Shown here: piece after piece, positions 4,718 to 49,967 of the stretch
Layout: every line of letters begins with the position of its first letter
Position numbering within the stretch: position 1 is the stretch's first letter
Virus record (IMG/VR): IMGVR_UViG_3300025012_000112
Span: 1-54,114 of that record
DNA length: 54,114 nucleotides
Source: a virus
Reading direction: 5' to 3' (one strand)
Notes under the pieces: generated by a model
What the model was told of the DNA's origin: nothing
What the model saw: the letters and a program-made list of their open reading frames with translations, nothing else
Database searches by the model: none
Translations under genes and position numbers: made by a program

Positions 4718-4728
4718 TGAGCGCTCCG

Positions 4729-4773
4729 AGAGCAGAGAAGGGACGGGGTGCTGTGACCCCGTCCCACTGCTCT
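4729..4773 (-). terminator. Strong hairpin after the tube gene (attenuator or partial terminator)
   Basis: A perfect 10-bp stem (GGGACGGGGT / ACCCCGTCCC) with a 6-base loop sits inside an outer 7-bp stem (AGAGCAG / CTGCTCT). The hairpin directly abuts the stop codon of the 235-residue tube gene. There is no uridine run after it, so it is unlikely to be a full intrinsic terminator. Position and strength suggest that it protects the 3' end of the abundant tube mRNA or lowers read-through into the paralogue. Confidence 0.65.
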
Positions 4774-5480
4774 TAACTTGTCTGCGGTTGGAATTCGGAT
4801 GATGCCGCGCGAATCGGGATGATCTTGCGGGCCACGAACGTCATGGCCTGCTCGACAACCGTATCGTCGACGGACATTCCGACGCCTTCGTTGAGAATCT
4901 CCGCATACAGAATCCTCATCGACGCCGCCTGGCCTTGTTCGTTGGCCATAGTGAGCGTGATGTGGAATGCAGGCAATTGGTCCGCGTACCACGGCTTGGT
5001 GCGGTGGAACGTCTGGTTGAGCAGTTGCTCGAAGTCCAGATATGATCCGCCGGTGCCAATCATGGACGACATGTTGTGTCCCCATGTGTCGACTCCGAGG
5101 ATCGAGTTCTCCGCATTGGCGCCGGGCAGGATAATGCCCTGATCGCTGTACGCTGAATTCTCCGTCTCCTGGTCGGTCTCGAACAGTTTGCGCTTGGTCG
5201 TGCCGCTGGCCGCGCCCTTCCGAATGGCCTGGAGCTCTTCGAGAAGAGCGTGGCGGTCGAACTGGGCGAAGACCACTGAACCGGCGATGCCGCGCTTGCC
5301 GCGGGCATACGACCGTGGATCCGCCGACCCGAAGGTATAAATGGGAGCCTTCTCACGCCGTATGGAGTACGTGATGGCCTGGCACTCCCCGATCACCTTG
5401 TTATTGAAGATCGGGACGATATCCGGGCCGCCGAACGACGTGAACGTGCGCTCGTACATTTGCTGCTGTGTCTGAGCCAT
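4773..5480 (-). CDS. Tail tube protein
   Basis: A 235-residue protein starting at an ATG preceded by GGGAGGTGTGAACC. The N-terminal half has the beta-strand texture of phage tube subunits. Residues 63-80 (RGIAGSVVFAQFDRHALL) form a core motif shared with the larger paralogue downstream. The gene lies directly after the giant sheath gene, the canonical sheath-tube order of contractile tails. A strong hairpin after its stop fits a highly expressed structural gene. By length and position it is the best candidate for the main tube subunit. The assignment rests on order, length and motif, without a database match. Confidence 0.75.
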   Translation of the reverse strand: MAQTQQQMYERTFTSFGGPDIVPIFNNKVIGECQAITYSIRREKAPIYTFGSADPRSYARGKRGIAGSVVFAQFDRHALLEELQAIRKGAASGTTKRKLFETDQETENSAYSDQGIILPGANAENSILGVDTWGHNMSSMIGTGGSYLDFEQLLNQTFHRTKPWYADQLPAFHITLTMANEQGQAASMRILYAEILNEGVGMSVDDTVVEQAMTFVARKIIPIRAASSEFQPQTS

Positions 5481-5493
5481 GGTTCACACCTCC

Positions 5494-8400
5494 CTAAGCG
5501 TTTGGCAGCGCCAGTGATACCACTGTGCGGATTTTGCGGAGTTCCAGCCAGACGTTGAGCGTGAGCTCTATGCGAAGTTCGCCGATAATCGCCATTTGCC
5601 TGGTTGAGATGATGGTAAACGCGTAATCGCTGAGCGCGCCGACATTTACCATCGTCCGTAGTACTTCGTCAACTGCCGTGTTCAGCGCAAGGCGCTGAGG
5701 GATGGAGTTCGGCTGACCTAGGAACGGGCCGGCCACCCTGCGGATTGCCGCCATTGCGGAATGCACGACACGGACTGTTGACAGGCGTGTGTAGTCGGAC
5801 TTGACTCCGGGACGGCTGGGAAGATCGCCGGCCGCGGTGATGCCGTCCGTCACATAGACAACGCCTCCATAACTGTACAGCGTCACGTAGCGCATGCCGG
5901 TGAGGGCGTCGAGCTGCGCATTGCTGTAGTTGTAGCCCACCGCGCCCAGGTTAAGCATCGGCTTGTGAGTCGGTGCCGCTTCCGGGCTGAGGGTGGATAT
6001 CCGTCCCGCGTACATGGCTTCGGTGGTGACCGCGCGGCCGGTTGACTGGGACACAACTTCGGGTCCGCAACAAACCGACAGGTATCGGCCCACATCTTCC
6101 ATCCGCCCGTCGAGCGGGTTGGATGTCTTGAAGCCTGCGTACATTGGGGTCACGCCATCACCGATGGTCTTGGTGAGATTGAGCACGCGAGACTGGATGC
6201 CGCGGAGGGAAATATCCGTGGCGGGAGCAACTGAGACGATACCCAGCCGCTCATTGCCATTCAGCGAACACTGGTAACAGTGCTCGGCAAGCACCTGGCC
6301 AAAGTTGGTGATCGTGTTGTTGCCGTTCACGTCATTGGCGTCCGCTGTTTTTGGAGTTCCGTCCGGGTTAACGATAACGATGCCGCGTTCCTTGTTGTAC
6401 CAGAGTTTGCCGTAGCGATCCCCGAAGTACTTTGTGCGGGACTTGGCATCGAGGTACATGTCAAGCAAGGCAATGATATCCACCGGGGTATTCTCGATGA
6501 GCTGCAGAAGCCCTGTGTCGTACTGGGTTCCCAGCAACCTGGTGAGGTAGTACCCGGGGTCTTTGCCCACGCCGTCGTCTCCTCCGCGGAGGTAGGCCGG
6601 CGCATGCGTGCCGGTGGGATCCAGAAGCCTGTGCTCCCTCTCGTACTGTGCGACACCGATGGCTACAGGGTGCTCGAAGTCGGCCACGAACTGCGCCTGC
6701 ATCACGTTGTTCTCGCGATTGGTATTCAGGCCGACAACGACGGACTTGTACGTGATCGATGTTTGGGACGAGGGGTTGGTCAGGATGGTGCCTGTCGGAA
6801 CGTCGAACTTGTCGGGGGACCCTTTGCCCAAAGGCTTTTGGACCCTGATTGTCTTTTGTTCCGGGACCAGGATGCCACTGTTGTCAACGACGAGGGACAC
6901 GCCAACGATCTGGTTTGTTGGCAGCGAAGCGACCCAGGTGTCATTGCCGTAGCGGGCTCCGGGATACACCGCGCGGATGTACACGGCGACGTCGGTGTAG
7001 TACCAGTATTCGCCGGCAGCCAGTACGCTTCCCGTGGCCACGGTGAACACCGCGTCTTCGTGTTCCGGCAGGAAGACGGATCCCACGACGGGTTTGCCAC
7101 CCGGTGAATTCCGTTTGATGAGGATGGCCTCCGTGCCACTGTCCACGGCCTTGATGTACGGCACGCGGATGGCTTCGCCCGCGGCCAGGTCCGTGTCGAT
7201 GATGATGGAGCGGCCGAAGGAACCGATGCCCTTGCCGGATGCGAAGGGGTACGTGTAAATGCCGGCGGGAATATCGGCATCGACTTCCGTCTCCTCGATG
7301 CGAACCTTGGCGAGGGCTGTGTTCCCGTCGACGACACTGACGTTGACGGTGCCACCCCCGATGCGAGAGATCGTGATTGCCGAGGAACTGATGTACGGCA
7401 TGTACCATTCCCCCGCCGGTCTGGCAAAGAGTTCCGCGAGCGCAATGGCATCAGCGTATGTGCTGCCGCCAATACTGCCGTCCTCGTAGAGAGTGGCACT
7501 TACCTTCGTCTCGGTCTGGTTCAGGAAGGGAGTAATGCCTGCGGCAATGTAGATATCCCCGCCGTGCGTGACCAGGCCTGTGATGGGGTCGGGAATCGCT
7601 TCGTACACGAATCCGCCATCTTCCGGGGCAACGACAACATCCACGTCAGCCAGCATGCCAGTGACGTCGTCGTACATGGTGGCGCCGACCTCGACATCGA
7701 AGTTGCCCGATGTCGCGACGCCATCAAAGAAGTCGGACAGGTAGAACTTGTTGTCCGCGGCACTGTAGCTGAATGTGTGGACTTCTCCGGTCGTCGGCGG
7801 GGTCACAACGCGGGTGAACTGTACGAATGCTCCGCCCAGGTTGTAATCATCCGACTTGATCCGAAGCGCCACGTTGCCGAATTCCGACCCCGGGGTAATA
7901 CCCCCGATGTCCTTGTTGCCGGTATTCGTGTTGCTCCACGGAACCCGGTCCAGTCCATCGCTGTACATCATGTTGGTGGCAGTGAGACCAACGTAGTGGC
8001 CGGAACCGCCCGCCGAATACGGGTGTACCCACAGCGGCGCTCCCATGTCTGTGGGGGCGTACCCCAAAATGGCGTTGGGAGAAGAGCCCCCTGCAAAGTT
8101 GGTGACACAGTCCAACGTATTACCGGCGGCCCCTTCCATGCCACCAGCCACGCGTGGAGAGACGGTCATGTACCCGGCTCCCGGCCCTGAATCAGCGTCC
8201 CAGACTGAGGTCGCGGAATTGAGAAACACGCTTAGCGAATCCAGAACTTCGGCCACGGTCGCGCCGGGTGCCCACGCCCAGTGAGCGTAAGATTCTTGTG
8301 ATCCGCTGTGTCCTCCGACGATTGGGAGTGACTGGGGGCCAAACCCGTCGGTCCACGAAACGGTCAAAATTGGCCGGTTGGTCTCAAACGTCAGGGGGTT

Positions 8401-10353
8401 GAAGCCTGCAAGCGTGCAGTTATACGGCATGAGACCATTTCCTGCGCCAGTGTCCGATATCTCGAAGGTGGCTGCTGACGCACCGGGGCTGTCGGCAGTG
8501 AGCCGAATGACTGTTCCCACAGGGCCGGGTTCAATCGACGCAGTGAACGGAGCCACGCTTAGATTGATTGCCGTCAGGATCGAGTTGGCCGTATCTATGG
8601 TTGTCGCCCCGATTATCCACTCCACCCCTTCTGTGAACGTGTACACAGGCCCACTGTCGGTTAGCGTAAGTACGCATCCGCCCAAAGAACCTCCTATTAC
8701 ACGGAACAGAAGGAACCCGTTCGTGTTGTTCCCCGCGGTAAGAACATCCGCTTCGGTCGCTATCCCATCGGGATTGAATCCGCCTACGGCTTCCGCCGCT
8801 GCTGATGGGAATTCGAAGTGGCTTGGATTGGACGAGTAGCTGTCTCCGGCGGGGGTGATACGATCCTTGGCAATGGCGCTACCACAGTAACCGGCCCACG
8901 CTTCTTCGAAGCGGCCATAGGCTCCGCCCGTGACGGCGTTCCCCATGCCCTGGGCATTGGTCAGCCCCGTGACCAGGGTGATGCTCACTCCCGCCACCAC
9001 GCTGTCGATGACCGCGGTTTCCTCGTTGGCTCCGCCGGCGTCAAAGGTTACTGTTTGTCCTGCCACGAACTTTGTGGTGCTGGCCACTCCGATAATCGTG
9101 TCGCCGATGTTGGCCGCCACGTCCACGGTCGTCTCATGGTGCAAGTTGTTCCAGTCGTTGTGAGCGTTCGGGAACATAACCTGCGGGTTTGCTCCGACCG
9201 CGGGCATCTGCTTGATGGCCATGAAAGTCGGCGTCGGCGTCATGAGATCAACGCCGATCGCAACATGTGCGCCGCCCGGAACGGGGTTGGCACCCGTTCC
9301 TGATGGGGTAATGCGGATTTCGTCGGCCAAAGCTGCGTTATCGAAGTTCGCAACAGCGCCGGTGCCGGCCAGCCAGAACCGGACATCGTAGTCGAATTCG
9401 AGTTCCGCCTTGGTGGCCTTGCGCCCTGCTGCGGCGTTCATGGTGTACGTGGTCACGGGACCCGCGGGGTCATACTTGAAGTCCGGACCCACCATCTTGA
9501 GGGTCATGTTGCCGAAATTCGCGCCGCAGTCAATCTTGCCTACGGGAACGCTGTAGGCTGTATTTGCGTATGCGCCTGTCTTGGATCCTCCCGGAGGAGC
9601 GTATGCGACAATACCGCTGTAGTTGGTGACCGGAGCCTTCTCCCCGAGGTTGTACCGGACGAATTGCCCGGATACATCATCGGGCACGCCCAGGAGGTCC
9701 ACATAACCCACCTGAGCCCGTGGAAGGGGATTGCCATCAATGTCCAGGTCAACCGACAAGTCGATGACCAGGTCTTCCGCGATATTGCCGTTCAGGTCCA
9801 GAACCGACGACACTGCTTTCTCAACGGATGTGTAGGTAACCCCACCGTCGAGCGTGTACTTCATGTAGACCATCCCGCCGGCCATGTTCGAGCTGAAGCC
9901 CGCCCTGGCAAACCGAATCTCGTCGGCGTTGACAGGGTCCGACATCGTGATGTCCCCCACAAGGAACTGCGGGTCCGGGATGTCGAATTCAGCAAGCGGG
10001 TCGATCTCGGCGTAGGCGATACGCGGGTTGCCCGTTCCGGGCGCCGGATCCTCTTTGAGAATCAGTGCCGCGTAGTCGCCGCCGATGCGCATCGCGTTAA
10101 CTCCGCGCGCGCCGGCATCGTATGCGTCGCCAAGGCCGCGCACAAGATTGGCCTGGGCATTCGCAACAGCGTCACCGAAGAACTCGACGGAGCCCTGTGG
10201 GATCGTAACCACCACCGGGCGGTCCGTGGGTCCATCGGCCGCCGTGCCTACCACGAGTACAACGTCAGTAGTTGCCGGGGGAGGAGGAGCTGCCAGTCCG
10301 CCGTCTTTATAGTCCGTGACGAACCCGGCAAGATTTGGGTATACGGTTGCCAT
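5494..10353 (-). CDS. Giant contractile tail sheath protein
   Basis: A 1,619-residue protein. The N-terminal 100 residues have the sheath signature: a phage-type opening, a VVLVVGTAADGP strand-loop, a FGDAVANAQANLVRGLGDAYD segment (read in two parts) and a GVNAMRIGGDYA strand. The C-terminal 380 residues hold the conserved sheath core. This includes the LLGTQYDTGLLQLIE region, a STVRVVHSAMAAIRR helix, a FLGQPNS turn, a VNVGALSDY segment and a final beta strand. Between them lie about 1,100 residues of Gly/Thr/Asn-rich, beta-predicted sequence that ordinary sheath proteins (roughly 400-700 residues) lack. These are most simply read as several surface domains projecting from the sheath. The reading frame is unbroken. 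The start is supported by AAGGAGGAAGCCA before the ATG. Confidence 0.85.
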   Translation of the reverse strand: MATVYPNLAGFVTDYKDGGLAAPPPPATTDVVLVVGTAADGPTDRPVVVTIPQGSVEFFGDAVANAQANLVRGLGDAYDAGARGVNAMRIGGDYAALILKEDPAPGTGNPRIAYAEIDPLAEFDIPDPQFLVGDITMSDPVNADEIRFARAGFSSNMAGGMVYMKYTLDGGVTYTSVEKAVSSVLDLNGNIAEDLVIDLSVDLDIDGNPLPRAQVGYVDLLGVPDDVSGQFVRYNLGEKAPVTNYSGIVAYAPPGGSKTGAYANTAYSVPVGKIDCGANFGNMTLKMVGPDFKYDPAGPVTTYTMNAAAGRKATKAELEFDYDVRFWLAGTGAVANFDNAALADEIRITPSGTGANPVPGGAHVAIGVDLMTPTPTFMAIKQMPAVGANPQVMFPNAHNDWNNLHHETTVDVAANIGDTIIGVASTTKFVAGQTVTFDAGGANEETAVIDSVVAGVSITLVTGLTNAQGMGNAVTGGAYGRFEEAWAGYCGSAIAKDRITPAGDSYSSNPSHFEFPSAAAEAVGGFNPDGIATEADVLTAGNNTNGFLLFRVIGGSLGGCVLTLTDSGPVYTFTEGVEWIIGATTIDTANSILTAINLSVAPFTASIEPGPVGTVIRLTADSPGASAATFEISDTGAGNGLMPYNCTLAGFNPLTFETNRPILTVSWTDGFGPQSLPIVGGHSGSQESYAHWAWAPGATVAEVLDSLSVFLNSATSVWDADSGPGAGYMTVSPRVAGGMEGAAGNTLDCVTNFAGGSSPNAILGYAPTDMGAPLWVHPYSAGGSGHYVGLTATNMMYSDGLDRVPWSNTNTGNKDIGGITPGSEFGNVALRIKSDDYNLGGAFVQFTRVVTPPTTGEVHTFSYSAADNKFYLSDFFDGVATSGNFDVEVGATMYDDVTGMLADVDVVVAPEDGGFVYEAIPDPITGLVTHGGDIYIAAGITPFLNQTETKVSATLYEDGSIGGSTYADAIALAELFARPAGEWYMPYISSSAITISRIGGGTVNVSVVDGNTALAKVRIEETEVDADIPAGIYTYPFASGKGIGSFGRSIIIDTDLAAGEAIRVPYIKAVDSGTEAILIKRNSPGGKPVVGSVFLPEHEDAVFTVATGSVLAAGEYWYYTDVAVYIRAVYPGARYGNDTWVASLPTNQIVGVSLVVDNSGILVPEQKTIRVQKPLGKGSPDKFDVPTGTILTNPSSQTSITYKSVVVGLNTNRENNVMQAQFVADFEHPVAIGVAQYEREHRLLDPTGTHAPAYLRGGDDGVGKDPGYYLTRLLGTQYDTGLLQLIENTPVDIIALLDMYLDAKSRTKYFGDRYGKLWYNKERGIVIVNPDGTPKTADANDVNGNNTITNFGQVLAEHCYQCSLNGNERLGIVSVAPATDISLRGIQSRVLNLTKTIGDGVTPMYAGFKTSNPLDGRMEDVGRYLSVCCGPEVVSQSTGRAVTTEAMYAGRISTLSPEAAPTHKPMLNLGAVGYNYSNAQLDALTGMRYVTLYSYGGVVYVTDGITAAGDLPSRPGVKSDYTRLSTVRVVHSAMAAIRRVAGPFLGQPNSIPQRLALNTAVDEVLRTMVNVGALSDYAFTIISTRQMAIIGELRIELTLNVWLELRKIRTVVSLALPNA

Positions 10354-20761: not shown

Positions 20762-21409
20762 CTATATCATGATCCGGCGAATACGTATTCGTGCACTGTA
20801 CGACGCGTCGCCATTGCTGCAATTCAGGTATATGTTATCGACATCCGCCGTCACGCTCAGTGTGATACTACTTGCGTCCCCAATCGACGCGGTTGGTGTC
20901 TGAAGCTCCTGAACACCGGAGGTGTCGTCCCAGCAGGCTAATATCTGCACGGTCTTGAACCCATTCACAGTGACTTTTTCGATGGTACATATCCATTCCG
21001 CGCCATGAACGTTTGCCTCTCGCGGAACGGTGTCCACCACCGCGGAAGCGCTGGGCATGACAATCTGTTCTTTACTGGGCACACCGGACTGGTAAGCGGA
21101 TATGTCGGCGACCATTATCCATCGGCCGGTTTGTGGTGCGCCACCACCATCGTCAGGTTCTACGATGCGCAGGTCGGCATCCTCGTCTTGTCCGGAGCCG
21201 GGATCGTATATGTACAGTCGGCCAAGTTCCGTCACCTGGCGTATCTGATAATCCGTTACTTCGACGGGTTCCCCGAGGACCCCTCCTGTCTTGATGTTGC
21301 GGAGCACGGTGAGGTCGACCGCTGGTTTGGACCAGTTATTGAGCCTACTCAGCTGTTCCTCGCGGACGGACTCATCCACGAGGTCCAGATATCCTTTTAG
21401 TTTGCTCAT
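20762..21409 (-). CDS. Phage appendage protein with 'YIYDPGS...GRWI' module
   Basis: A 215-residue protein. After a helical N-terminus (residues 1-45), a segment around residues 64-100 reads LYIYDPGSGQDEDADLRIVE and then TGRWIMVA. This is the recurrent module found at the base of many phage fibres ('Y.yDp.S...ddg..vi.p...GRW'). The rest is a beta-rich C-terminal domain with a CWDDTSGVQE loop. The ATG overlaps the stop of the upstream gene. It is probably a structural element of the tail fibre network. Confidence 0.6.
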   Translation of the reverse strand: MSKLKGYLDLVDESVREEQLSRLNNWSKPAVDLTVLRNIKTGGVLGEPVEVTDYQIRQVTELGRLYIYDPGSGQDEDADLRIVEPDDGGGAPQTGRWIMVADISAYQSGVPSKEQIVMPSASAVVDTVPREANVHGAEWICTIEKVTVNGFKTVQILACWDDTSGVQELQTPTASIGDASSITLSVTADVDNIYLNCSNGDASYSARIRIRRIMI

Positions 21410-31965: not shown

Positions 31966-31990
31966 GGATTCCTCCGAGAAGCAAGGGGCC

Positions 31991-32010
31991 GGGGGAGCCG
32001 AAGCTCCCCC
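31991..32010 (-). terminator. GC-rich hairpin after the major capsid gene
   Basis: An 8-bp stem GGGGGAGC / GCTCCCCC closed by a TTCG tetraloop on the minus strand. The U-run expected after it is missing (it reads GGCCCCTTGCTTC), so on this strand it is probably an attenuator or 3'-end stabiliser between the abundant capsid mRNA and the next gene. On the opposite strand a short T-rich tail follows it. The UUCG loop makes it unusually stable. Confidence 0.6.
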
Positions 32011-32037
32011 GTGCCTTTTGCTTGTTCTTTACAGACC

Positions 32038-46582: not shown

Positions 46583-46616
46583 GCGGTTGACAACCGCGCC
46601 TACGGTCGCCTATACT
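46583..46616 (+). promoter_or_regulatory. Strong promoter with inverted repeat over the -35
   Basis: TTGACA (46587-46592), 18-base spacer, TATACT (46611-46616). The -35 lies inside a perfect inverted repeat, GCGGTT-GAC-AACCGC (46583-46597), which could be an operator or an endolysin transcript hairpin. No gene with a clear start lies before the terminator at 46702, so this promoter probably drives the candidate small RNA. Confidence 0.65.
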
Positions 46617-46622
46617 AAGGTT

Positions 46623-46727
46623 TCAATCACCGCGGCGTCCACCAGGACACTTGGTGATGTTTGATCTTCCCATTTGATCGGAGGGTTGCGCCATGGCCCA
46701 GCCGCCCGAAACCGGGCGGTTTTTGTT
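46623..46727 (+). ncRNA. Candidate small RNA, about 105 nt
   Basis: The consensus promoter at 46587 would start transcription near 46623. An intrinsic terminator ends at about 46725. Between them is a short stem (CACCA / TGGTG at 46639-46655 region), a GATC-rich loop and a GGAGG-ATG that opens an ORF whose first codons run into the terminator. The transcript could be a regulatory RNA or a leader whose translation disrupts its own terminator. No known RNA family is recognised. Confidence 0.45.
46702..46725 (+). terminator. Intrinsic terminator, rightward
   Basis: A 7-bp stem CCGCCCG / CGGGCGG with an AAAC loop, followed by TTTTTG (46720-46725). It ends the candidate small RNA and any endolysin read-through. 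It faces the leftward terminators at 46744 and 46852. Confidence 0.85.
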
Positions 46728-46743
46728 TAACGGCAGTCGCCAT

Positions 46744-47794: not shown

Positions 47795-47896
47795 ATGAAC
47801 TTCGAAGAATTGTTCGTTAAGCACGCAAACAAGATTGCAGCAGCAGCGTTCGTCCTGTTCGTACTGGGTTGCGTCCTGTACAAGGTGTGGTTCTGA
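47795..47896 (+). CDS. 33-residue membrane protein
   Basis: A short gene starting after AAAGGAGGTGAGCAC, a perfect ribosome site. The protein MNFEELFVKHANKIAAAAFV continues into VLGCVLYKVWF. It has one transmembrane helix (residues 14-29) and a short aromatic C-terminus. The hairpin at 47899 begins two bases after the stop. The strong ribosome site and downstream structure argue that it is translated. Its role is unknown; a small membrane protein early in a phage block could modulate host envelope functions. Confidence 0.6.
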   Translation: MNFEELFVKHANKIAAAAFVLFVLGCVLYKVWF

Positions 47897-47898
47897 GC

Positions 47899-47950
47899 AA
47901 GGCTTTGCCATTGTCCCTCAGCTATCATCGAGGGACTTTGGTAAGTCCTT
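47899..47950 (+). other. Structured RNA element A, post-stop hairpin
   Basis: Outer stem AAGGCTTTGCCA (47899-47910) pairs with TGGTAAGTCCTT (47939-47950), with one C-T mismatch after the first four pairs and two G-T pairs. The inner stem GTCCCTC / GAGGGAC (47913-47919, 47930-47936) has a 10-base loop. The outer arms resemble those of the elements at 48247 and 48672, each of which also follows a small-gene stop. It lacks a uridine run. Confidence 0.7.
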
Positions 47951-48029
47951 ATTCAATATAGATATGCTTGTCCACGCATGCTTAGCATGCACGGCATACT
48001 GTGGATAGGGCACAGGAGGCTTCAAAGCC

Positions 48030-48242
48030 ATGTACACCACCAACAGCAGTAGCAATTGGGTTATGCTCGCAGTAGCAGCGGTGCTGGGTATCGCACTCAT
48101 GTTCGCAGTATGCGTATGCTTCCCCTTGCTGCCCTCACGCACGAAGGACTGGGCCTTAGACCGTATGGCTTCCGGCAAGGTAGGCAGGACGGCTCGCAAG
48201 GCTGAGTACGCAACACTGCGTGCACGCAGAGCACAGAAGTAA
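48030..48242 (+). CDS. 70-residue membrane protein, paralogue of 48472
   Basis: A small protein with one transmembrane helix (about residues 11-33) and a basic C-terminal half (residues 37-70, KVGRTARK). GGAGG is 10 bases before the ATG. Between them GGCTTCAAAGCC can fold as a 4-bp stem with a TCAA loop that would shorten the gap. It is about half identical to the 67-residue protein at 48472 (shared MYTT, NSS, CVC, PxRTK, KVGR). A tandem duplication is likely. The topology would place the basic tail in the cytoplasm, where it could bind nucleic acid or a host protein. Confidence 0.65.
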   Translation: MYTTNSSSNWVMLAVAAVLGIALMFAVCVCFPLLPSRTKDWALDRMASGKVGRTARKAEYATLRARRAQK

Positions 48243-48246
48243 GCAG

Positions 48247-48305
48247 TAAGGCTTCATCACGTACCCACATAGAGAACACCCTGTGTGGGTACACATGAAC
48301 CCTTA
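48247..48305 (+). other. Structured RNA element B, post-stop hairpin
   Basis: Outer stem TAAGGCTTCAT (48247-48257) pairs with ATGAACCCTTA (48295-48305), interrupted by a single C-C mismatch at the same place as the mismatches in elements A and C. A small internal loop follows, then a 9-bp inner stem GTACCCACA / TGTGGGTAC (48261-48269, 48284-48292). No U-run follows. Confidence 0.72.
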
Positions 48306-48329
48306 TCAATCGACACATGCATGTATGTA

Positions 48330-48357
48330 TATATATAGTACGTAAGTACTATATATA
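48330..48357. repeat. 28-bp near-palindrome, AT-rich
   Basis: TATATATAGTAC-GTAA-GTACTATATATA, a perfect 12-bp inverted repeat with a 4-base centre. It is AT-rich and lies between two small genes, 115 bases before the ATG at 48472. It could be an operator, a cruciform-forming site or a replication or packaging signal. The 6-bp hairpin CCCTGC / GCAGGG follows at 48383-48398. Confidence 0.75.
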
Positions 48358-48471
48358 ACATACCACTACCCTCAGTAACATGCCCTGCTAAGGCAGGGTG
48401 TTGCACGTATACACAGCACCAGCATGGGTGCTCTACAAGTACATGCACACAAACAGGAGGTGTACATCACC

Positions 48472-48675
48472 ATGTACACAACAACAAACAGCAGTTGGAT
48501 TTATGCAGTAGCGGCACTCGTAGTAGGGCTCGCCCTCATGTTCGTGCTCTGCGTGTGCTACCCTGTCCTGCCCGCACGTACCAAGCAGGGCATCGTGGAC
48601 AGGCTTGCGGCACGCAAGGTAGGGCGCTCCGCATACAAGGACGCGCTCAGCAGCATCCGCACCGCAAGAAAGTAA
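48472..48675 (+). CDS. 67-residue membrane protein, paralogue of 48030
   Basis: A protein of the same plan as the 70-residue neighbour: a short MYTTTNSSW head, one transmembrane helix (about residues 10-31), then a basic Arg/Lys-rich tail (LAARKVGRSAYKDAL). ACAGGAGGTGTACATCACC before the ATG supports the start. The stop codon TAA lies inside the 5' arm of the hairpin that begins at 48672. Its function is unknown. Confidence 0.65.
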   Translation: MYTTTNSSWIYAVAALVVGLALMFVLCVCYPVLPARTKQGIVDRLAARKVGRSAYKDALSSIRTARK

Positions 48676-48728
48676 GGCTTTGCACACAGCGCCTGCTCAC
48701 AGCAGTGGGCGCTGTAGCAAGTCCTTAC
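48672..48728 (+). other. Structured RNA element C, stop-codon hairpin
   Basis: Outer stem GTAAGGCTTTGC (48672-48683) pairs with GCAAGTCCTTAC (48717-48728), with a C-T mismatch. The inner stem ACAGCGCC / GGCGCTGT (48686-48693, 48708-48715) is followed by TGCT / AGCA around a CAC loop. The stop codon of the 67-residue gene (48673-48675) is part of the 5' arm. Confidence 0.75.
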
Positions 48729-49313: not shown

Positions 49314-49967
49314 ATGCTTTGCCAAAGATGCGCCCACTTTCTCAGTGGACGCCCGCTGTTTGATCAAGGCGCGGATCAGTGCGCAGTGGGCAGGCCCATT
49401 GATGCGGATATGAACGCGGAACACACCATGAATATGGTGGTGGGCTCCTACTTCCATCCGGACTTCGAGTACGTGGAACCTGTCTATCCGCGGAATGAGC
49501 GGGTGGACGAGGACAAGGTGCTGCAGAACCTGATTGCGTTCCTGAACGGGGACGAAGTCGAAGAACTGGATCTGCTCACCAAAATAGGCGATGTGGAAAT
49601 CGACCCGCAATTCGTGGATGCCGCCGAAGCAATACTGGAGATGGCCCGTACCACGATGCAGGACTGGCTGGACCAGCGTCGACTGGTTATTCACCAGCCG
49701 CCGTACATCGACCAGTGCATTAACCACTGGCTTCGCTACAAGAACCAGGGTGCGTACTGGGACATCGTGATCTGGCTCAAGGAACGGAAGTTCGCTTTGC
49801 CGGAGTTCGACGACACGTGGTTTAAGGGTTGGCAACACATCGATCAAGTGAAACGGGCTCGGCTGGAAGCCATGGGCCTGGTTGGGCAAGACCCGCACTG
49901 CCCGTATTTCGTGCAGGCTGCGGACGAAGACATCGAGGACCCTGAGTGGTCCATGCTTGTCTACTAA
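49314..49967 (+). CDS. Hypothetical protein with N-terminal CxxC
   Basis: A 217-residue protein. The ATG at 49314 is chosen because it follows AAAGGAGGTCGCGAAT, eight bases upstream. It opens with MLCQRCAHFLSG (a CxxC pair), then a CAVG, giving a likely zinc knuckle near residues 3-24. The rest is helical with Trp-rich segments (WLRYKNQGAYWDIVIWLKE). It is acidic overall. The family is unrecognised, and the neighbours are other small phage genes. Confidence 0.5.
   Translation: MLCQRCAHFLSGRPLFDQGADQCAVGRPIDADMNAEHTMNMVVGSYFHPDFEYVEPVYPRNERVDEDKVLQNLIAFLNGDEVEELDLLTKIGDVEIDPQFVDAAEAILEMARTTMQDWLDQRRLVIHQPPYIDQCINHWLRYKNQGAYWDIVIWLKERKFALPEFDDTWFKGWQHIDQVKRARLEAMGLVGQDPHCPYFVQAADEDIEDPEWSMLVY

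Follow-up and report, generated by a model that had tools for sequence, protein, structure and literature searches.

Three hairpins of one architecture, here called e1, e2 and e3, stand at the ends of three consecutive small membrane-protein genes in a virus record of 54,114 bases (the window, analysed at its full length). This threefold RNA element is real and tightly built, and the gene and hairpin block to which it belongs is an orphan in everything searched. The hairpins are of a known type, the intercistronic hairpins of phages; their combination of a fixed base with a free top is unusual or new. The structure is well documented, in a single phage, and a function can be proposed from the sequence. 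With moderate confidence, we interpret e1-e3 as intercistronic hairpins of the + strand RNA, lacking a U-run, which may set or protect mRNA 3' ends or serve as processing sites.

Structural genes occupy the - strand of the window at 1-45 kb, and the + strand carries an amidase gene followed by small genes at 45.6-54 kb. Phage family matches were obtained for the portal, capsid and tail-sheath genes. The nearest relative found is the viral contig G001 (170,138 bases), with 64% identity in the portal and 73% in the capsid protein, and its synteny with the window extends through the amidase gene; Moorella phage MTATph1 is a more distant relative. Judging by the strong Shine-Dalgarno sites of the window and its relationship to a Moorella phage, the host may belong to the Bacillota. 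Past 46.6 kb, none of the window genes, the three small genes included, has a match in G001 or MTATph1.

All three small genes lie on the + strand. The product of gene 1 (47795-47896) has 33 aa and a single hydrophobic segment; the gene is preceded by a strong Shine-Dalgarno sequence, AAAGGAGGT. The 70-aa protein of gene 2 (48030-48242) has one hydrophobic segment, starting from residue 11, and a basic C-terminal tail (+8). Gene 3 (48472-48675) encodes its 67-aa paralogue, 51% identical, likewise combining a single hydrophobic segment with a C-terminal tail of net charge +8. Identity between genes 2 and 3 at codon positions 1, 2 and 3 amounts to 63, 75 and 43%, the pattern expected of proteins under selection. 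The initial annotation regarded the membrane proteins as paralogues, which is right for genes 2 and 3 but not for gene 1, as no similarity was detected when it was compared with gene 3. The hairpin has therefore not merely been carried along with a duplicated gene.

Protein searches with genes 2 and 3 in viral contigs, genomes, phages and plasmids gave no relatives, and a model of the pair matched the window alone. Family searches for the small genes returned nothing convincing, only noise-level matches; assignment of gene 3 to TMIE (Pfam, E 0.0009) was rejected as falling under the curated cut-off, the match being attributed to hydrophobic and basic composition. Similarly, no relatives were found for the neighbouring gene at 49314-49967, and blastn of the gene and hairpin block against phages gave matches only at E > 1.

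Hairpin e1 (47894-47955, + strand) consists of helices of 4, 4, 7 and 7 bp, interrupted by a C-A and then a C-U mismatch and by a 2x2 internal loop, and has a 10-nt loop. In both e2 (48246-48306, +) and e3 (48672-48728, +), the helices measure 6, 5 and 12 bp; e2 contains a C-C mismatch and a 3x2 internal loop, e3 a C-U mismatch and a 2x1 internal loop. Upper stems and loops are unrelated among the three, and still the total helix comes to 22, 23 and 23 bp; helices of 22-23 bp are in themselves not rare, being found in 17% of 520 stable hairpin candidates in the window. What the hairpins have in common is their lower arms, GYAAGG-C-TT...Y-CCTTA, with the C-Y mismatch at one fixed place and a second, variable internal loop 5-7 bp beyond it. 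Each element is also tied to a stop codon. The stop of gene 1 (TGA, 47894-47896) is paired in the outermost e1 helix, e2 begins 3 nt past the stop of gene 2, and the stop of gene 3 (TAA, 48673-48675) lies inside the outer arm of e3.

This picture agrees in most respects with the initial annotation. The three hairpins of one architecture with unrelated inner stems that it described were all recovered by folding and z-scores, as was the single mismatch at the same position (C-T, C-C, C-T in DNA letters). Its placement of the elements after or across stop codons was correct for the stop within the e3 arm and needs the correction that the gene 1 stop, too, is inside its hairpin. The first element is present where it was placed (47899-47950), its true extent being 47894-47955. 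The proposed arm motif AAGGCTT/AA[GC][TC]CCTT describes e1 and e3 but not e2, which ends ATGAA-C-CCTT.

Among the pairs of the lower stem, five are invariant, two have a variable base on one side, and in three both bases differ between copies (UA/CG, AU/GC/GU and CG/UA); e1 alone has one pair broken. The double-sided changes bear out the compensating arm changes noted initially. Stretches of 71 nt containing e1, e2 and e3 fold with -29.8, -30.4 and -34.1 kcal/mol, corresponding to z-scores of -5.9, -7.5 and -4.8 against dinucleotide shuffles. A U-G and a G-U pair in e1 and a U-G pair in e3 (the first pair after the mismatch in both hairpins is U-G) can form in + strand RNA only. The argument for this strand is modest, since folding energies on the + and - strand are nearly equal for e3 (-34.1 vs -33.0) and slightly better on the - strand for e2 (-30.4 vs -32.9), e1 being the one that favours the + strand (-29.8 vs -25.5). 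The 3' tails, ATTCAATA, CAATCGAC and ACAGACAC, contain no U-run, as was already remarked in the initial annotation, and none follows the hairpins on either strand.

Several controls bear on the question whether such a set could arise by chance. For the pattern AAGGCTT..AASYCCTT, the window has two occurrences where 0.01 would be expected, and no shuffled sequence contains two copies; e2 departs from this strict pattern by one column. A z-score below -4 after the stop codon was found in five of 62 called genes, namely genes 1-3, the tail-tube-type gene at 4773-5480 and the gene at 21406, where the fold lies in the coding sequence of the following gene. In the lower-stem alignment, 97% of cells are paired and three pairs are altered on both sides, whereas sliding the alignment by 1-3 columns left 22-49% paired and no double-sided pair. 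Shuffling was a weak control with three sequences only, 26 of 500 shuffles reaching the observed value. The covariation, seen in three sequences of which one stands beside a paralogue, is accordingly suggestive only. A covariance model of e1 and e3 had e2 as its sole further + strand match at E < 10, with an E-value of 0.23 that is weak taken alone. When the outer arms of all stable hairpins were compared, the likeness of any single pair was not beyond chance, so that the case rests on three mutual matches at consecutive genes. The lower arms are also more alike than genes 2 and 3 are at their third codon positions (43% identity) and have thus been held tighter than unconstrained sequence. Ranking hairpins window-wide by energy or z-score is uninformative alone, being dominated by GC-rich coding sequence.

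Further copies were sought widely. Covariance model R1 recovered only e1-e3 (and e1 on the reverse strand) from the window, G001 and MTATph1, gave chance-level matches only in 43 related loci and found no copy in 15 related whole records other than the window. Rfam 15 has no family at the gathering cut-off, the best sub-threshold matches (E > 1) being chance. The exact arm pattern has at least 120 matches in viral contigs and, among the loci examined, a comparable hairpin occurs only in the window. A longer 21-base arm pattern has none in viral contigs; its three genome matches all lack an inner hairpin and were taken as chance. The structured RNA family postulated initially is thus supported as a repeated structure, by compensatory changes, constant helix length and stop-codon placement, but has no copy elsewhere. 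The covariance-model check for the arms in relatives, suggested at the same time, found none; yet no relative searched has the membrane genes, and the missing arms are therefore uninformative rather than fatal to an RNA family.

Taking these traits together, the following course of events may be envisaged. Genes 1-3 would be transcribed on one polycistronic message, each small membrane gene running straight into a helix of some two turns (22-23 bp), and RNA polymerase would be expected to read on past e1-e3, as no U-run follows them. The helix might then halt 3'-to-5' exonucleases, or its lower part might be cut by an RNase III-type double-strand-specific enzyme, and every small gene would come to have a separate mRNA whose 3' end is folded. 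As the first arm lies 0-3 nt from the stop codon, which is itself included in e1 and e3, folding would be tied to translation: a ribosome terminating there would keep the lower helix from closing, and the fold would form between ribosomes only. We infer both the acting nuclease and the effect on expression.

RNase III processing sites between phage genes are familiar from T7 and from Bacillus phages SP82 and SPO1. Like e1-e3, they are irregular intergenic hairpins of about two turns with mismatches or internal loops and without a U-run. They differ from e1-e3, where cleavage is only putative, in that the latter share a lower-stem sequence, something such enzymes can do without. For B. subtilis RNase III, cleavage is reported in helices of 10-36 bp (PMC11780869); the interrupted helices of e1-e3 lie within that range and would make a fair substrate. 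That e1-e3 are RNase III sites specifically is possible, and we propose it tentatively. Since RNase III has no need of a conserved lower stem, its conservation is not explained by this enzyme alone; contact with a protein is one possibility. Against the 3'-end interpretation as a whole speaks the absence of the lower-stem motif from every other phage searched.

Hairpins behind other genes of these phages provide context. In both the window and G001, hairpins follow the capsid and tail-tube genes, with differing sequences; those of the window lie at 31976-32026 (capsid) and 4721-4781 (tail-tube-type). Among 41 relatives in which the end of the capsid gene is available (loci L144-L186), a set that includes several near-duplicates, the sequence after the stop has z < -2 in 33 and z < -3 in 21. 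At least 19 of the 30 distinct post-capsid sequences contain a hairpin of -12 kcal/mol or better (a lower bound, from a scan of even hairpin lengths), and a T-rich tail (at least 5 T in 8 nt) follows three of these 19. Evidently, strong hairpins, mostly without a U-run, after selected genes are a habit of these phages, which favours e1-e3 as mRNA 3'-end elements. The post-capsid hairpins resemble e1-e3 in being strong, in starting soon past the stop, in usually lacking a U-run and in having the next ribosome-binding site close behind. Unlike e1-e3 with their common lower stem, they have an unrelated sequence in each phage, and e1-e3 belong to small membrane genes that lie beyond the conserved region. 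Of the roles listed in the initial annotation, stabilization or nuclease processing fits best, judging by hairpin geometry and by the post-capsid hairpins of related phages; termination is disfavoured, and ligand sensing is unsupported, as there is no conserved loop or junction.

If this interpretation is right, three copies with one base and three tops make up a compact natural set for separating what is essential in a post-stop hairpin from what is dispensable, and the clade has unrelated hairpins behind its capsid gene as well. One could then also test by what means large phages of Gram-positive-type hosts give the genes on one message different levels without terminators.

Alternatively, though we consider it unlikely, a specific phage or host protein might recognize the C-Y mismatch and the conserved lower stem around it and exert translational or decay control. 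Sequence conservation is indeed confined to the lower stem, next to the mismatch, the upper stem drifting freely, and the structured leaders of genes 2 and 3 point to regulation of the RNA. Between the Shine-Dalgarno GGAGG and the start codon of gene 2 (48012-48032, +), a small hairpin, GGCU UCAA AGCC (-4.9 kcal/mol), can form; gene 3 has GGUG UACAU CACC in the same place (48457-48474, +; -5.3 kcal/mol). Different bases pair in the two (GGCU/AGCC vs GGUG/CACC), and neither is significant alone (z -1.3 for gene 2). The leader of gene 3 additionally contains an AT-rich hairpin with an uninterrupted upper stem of 12 bp (48323-48363, +), unrelated to e1-e3 and overlapping a promoter-like site at 48310-48339, and a GC-rich hairpin (48375-48403, +; z -2.5). 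On the other hand, no candidate protein is at hand, and e1-e3 are located behind genes, not over ribosome-binding sites. As to the leaders themselves, Shine-Dalgarno to start spacing in genes 2 and 3 is 10-11 nt and would be shortened by folding of the small hairpin, and a leader such as that of gene 3 (48307-48471), with its AT-rich and GC-rich hairpins, is unusual in a compact phage genome.

It is rather improbable that e1-e3 act as terminators or attenuators making each small gene a transcription unit of its own. They share with intrinsic terminators a stable GC-rich hairpin right behind the gene, and a promoter-like TCGACA-18-TATAGT lies between e2 and gene 3. They differ from them in internal mismatches, in arms that start in or at the stop codon and in the missing U-run, and it is this last trait that disfavours termination. 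A terminator scan called none at e1-e3 on either strand and a canonical one at 46700-46721. Promoter-like sites are near chance frequency (7 vs 4.4 expected), with none between e1 and gene 2 or past e3.

A more speculative proposal, to be taken as a long shot, is that the lower stem GYAAGG-C-UU...Y-CCUUA constitutes either the site at which a dedicated protein of phage or host recognizes, and then processes or stores, the mRNAs of a small-membrane-protein module, or a cassette border for the exchange of orphan genes. If the shared base were such a protein or recombination site, e1-e3 would represent a new class of repeated phage element whose ends are fixed and whose centre need only pair.

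Sites acting at the DNA level, where gene cassettes are joined at imperfect inverted repeats in the manner of attC or of T4-type cassettes, we regard as quite improbable. The unit of gene and hairpin is repeated three times in one orientation, gene 1 carries the same element as genes 2 and 3 without being related to them, and the block is missing from the syntenic relative. Moreover, e1-e3 resemble integron attC sites in offering one imperfect inverted repeat per gene, with conserved outer boxes, a variable centre and a mismatch at a fixed place. The core boxes of attC read GTTRRRY / RYYYAAC. These are absent from the arms of e1-e3, whose outer ends show no R boxes of the form RYYYAAC...GTTRRRY; the evidence also points to the RNA strand, and no integrase was identified in the part of the window genes that was scanned. 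The promoter-early-stem-loop cassettes of T4-type phages, which Arbiol and co-workers reportedly described in 2010 (cited in PMC4177764), likewise place recurring stem-loops among small orphan genes, in a part of the genome that varies. In contrast to them, no promoter is seen beside e1 or e3, the only promoter-like neighbour being that of e2, and relatives contain no copies. A cassette origin is further opposed by the lack of any copy elsewhere, the three exact genome matches to the pattern being chance, and by genes 2 and 3 being plain tandem duplicates.

Type I toxin-antitoxin modules, in which an antisense RNA overlaps the structured 3' end of a message for a small membrane toxin, are very improbable here. 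Small proteins that combine one hydrophobic segment with a charged tail, tandem paralogues and structured mRNA would suit them, and RNase III reportedly acts on such modules in B. subtilis (studies cited in PMC11780869). However, a consensus scan revealed no promoter-like site on the - strand at 47.4-54 kb, and proteins 2 and 3 exceed the typical length and match no family. It is highly improbable that e1-e3 are copies of a small mobile inverted-repeat element of MITE or REP kind: despite terminal inverted repeats, and TA at both ends of e2 and e3, their interiors are unrelated instead of near-identical, neither window nor relatives hold other copies, and decay of an element would not give compensatory stem changes. 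Finally, that the arms are functionless leftovers of duplication is barely credible, for although genes 2 and 3 are duplicates, the compensatory pairs disfavour it, unrelated gene 1 has the same arms, the upper stems have been replaced and are still paired, and the arms resemble one another more closely than third codon positions do.

Comparison with relatives yielded some further observations. The tail-sheath gene of the window (5494-10353, - strand, 1619 codons) aligns with its relative in tblastn over residues 802-1618 only, so that its first half is either divergent or extra. In G001 (159209-161986; loci L136, L137), the terminase large subunit is split by about 1.3 kb between residues 55 and 56 (MTATph1 numbering), possibly by an intron or intein, unlike in the window, where it is uninterrupted. 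A candidate small RNA gene is located 3' of the endolysin gene in the window (46587-46730, +), where it has no match in Rfam, and in G001 (166811-166950; locus L137). Its promoter is near consensus in both, TTGACA-18-TATACT in the window and TTGACA and TATAAT in G001, and a GTCCACC(A)GGACAC hairpin is common to the two copies, each of which also has an intrinsic terminator.
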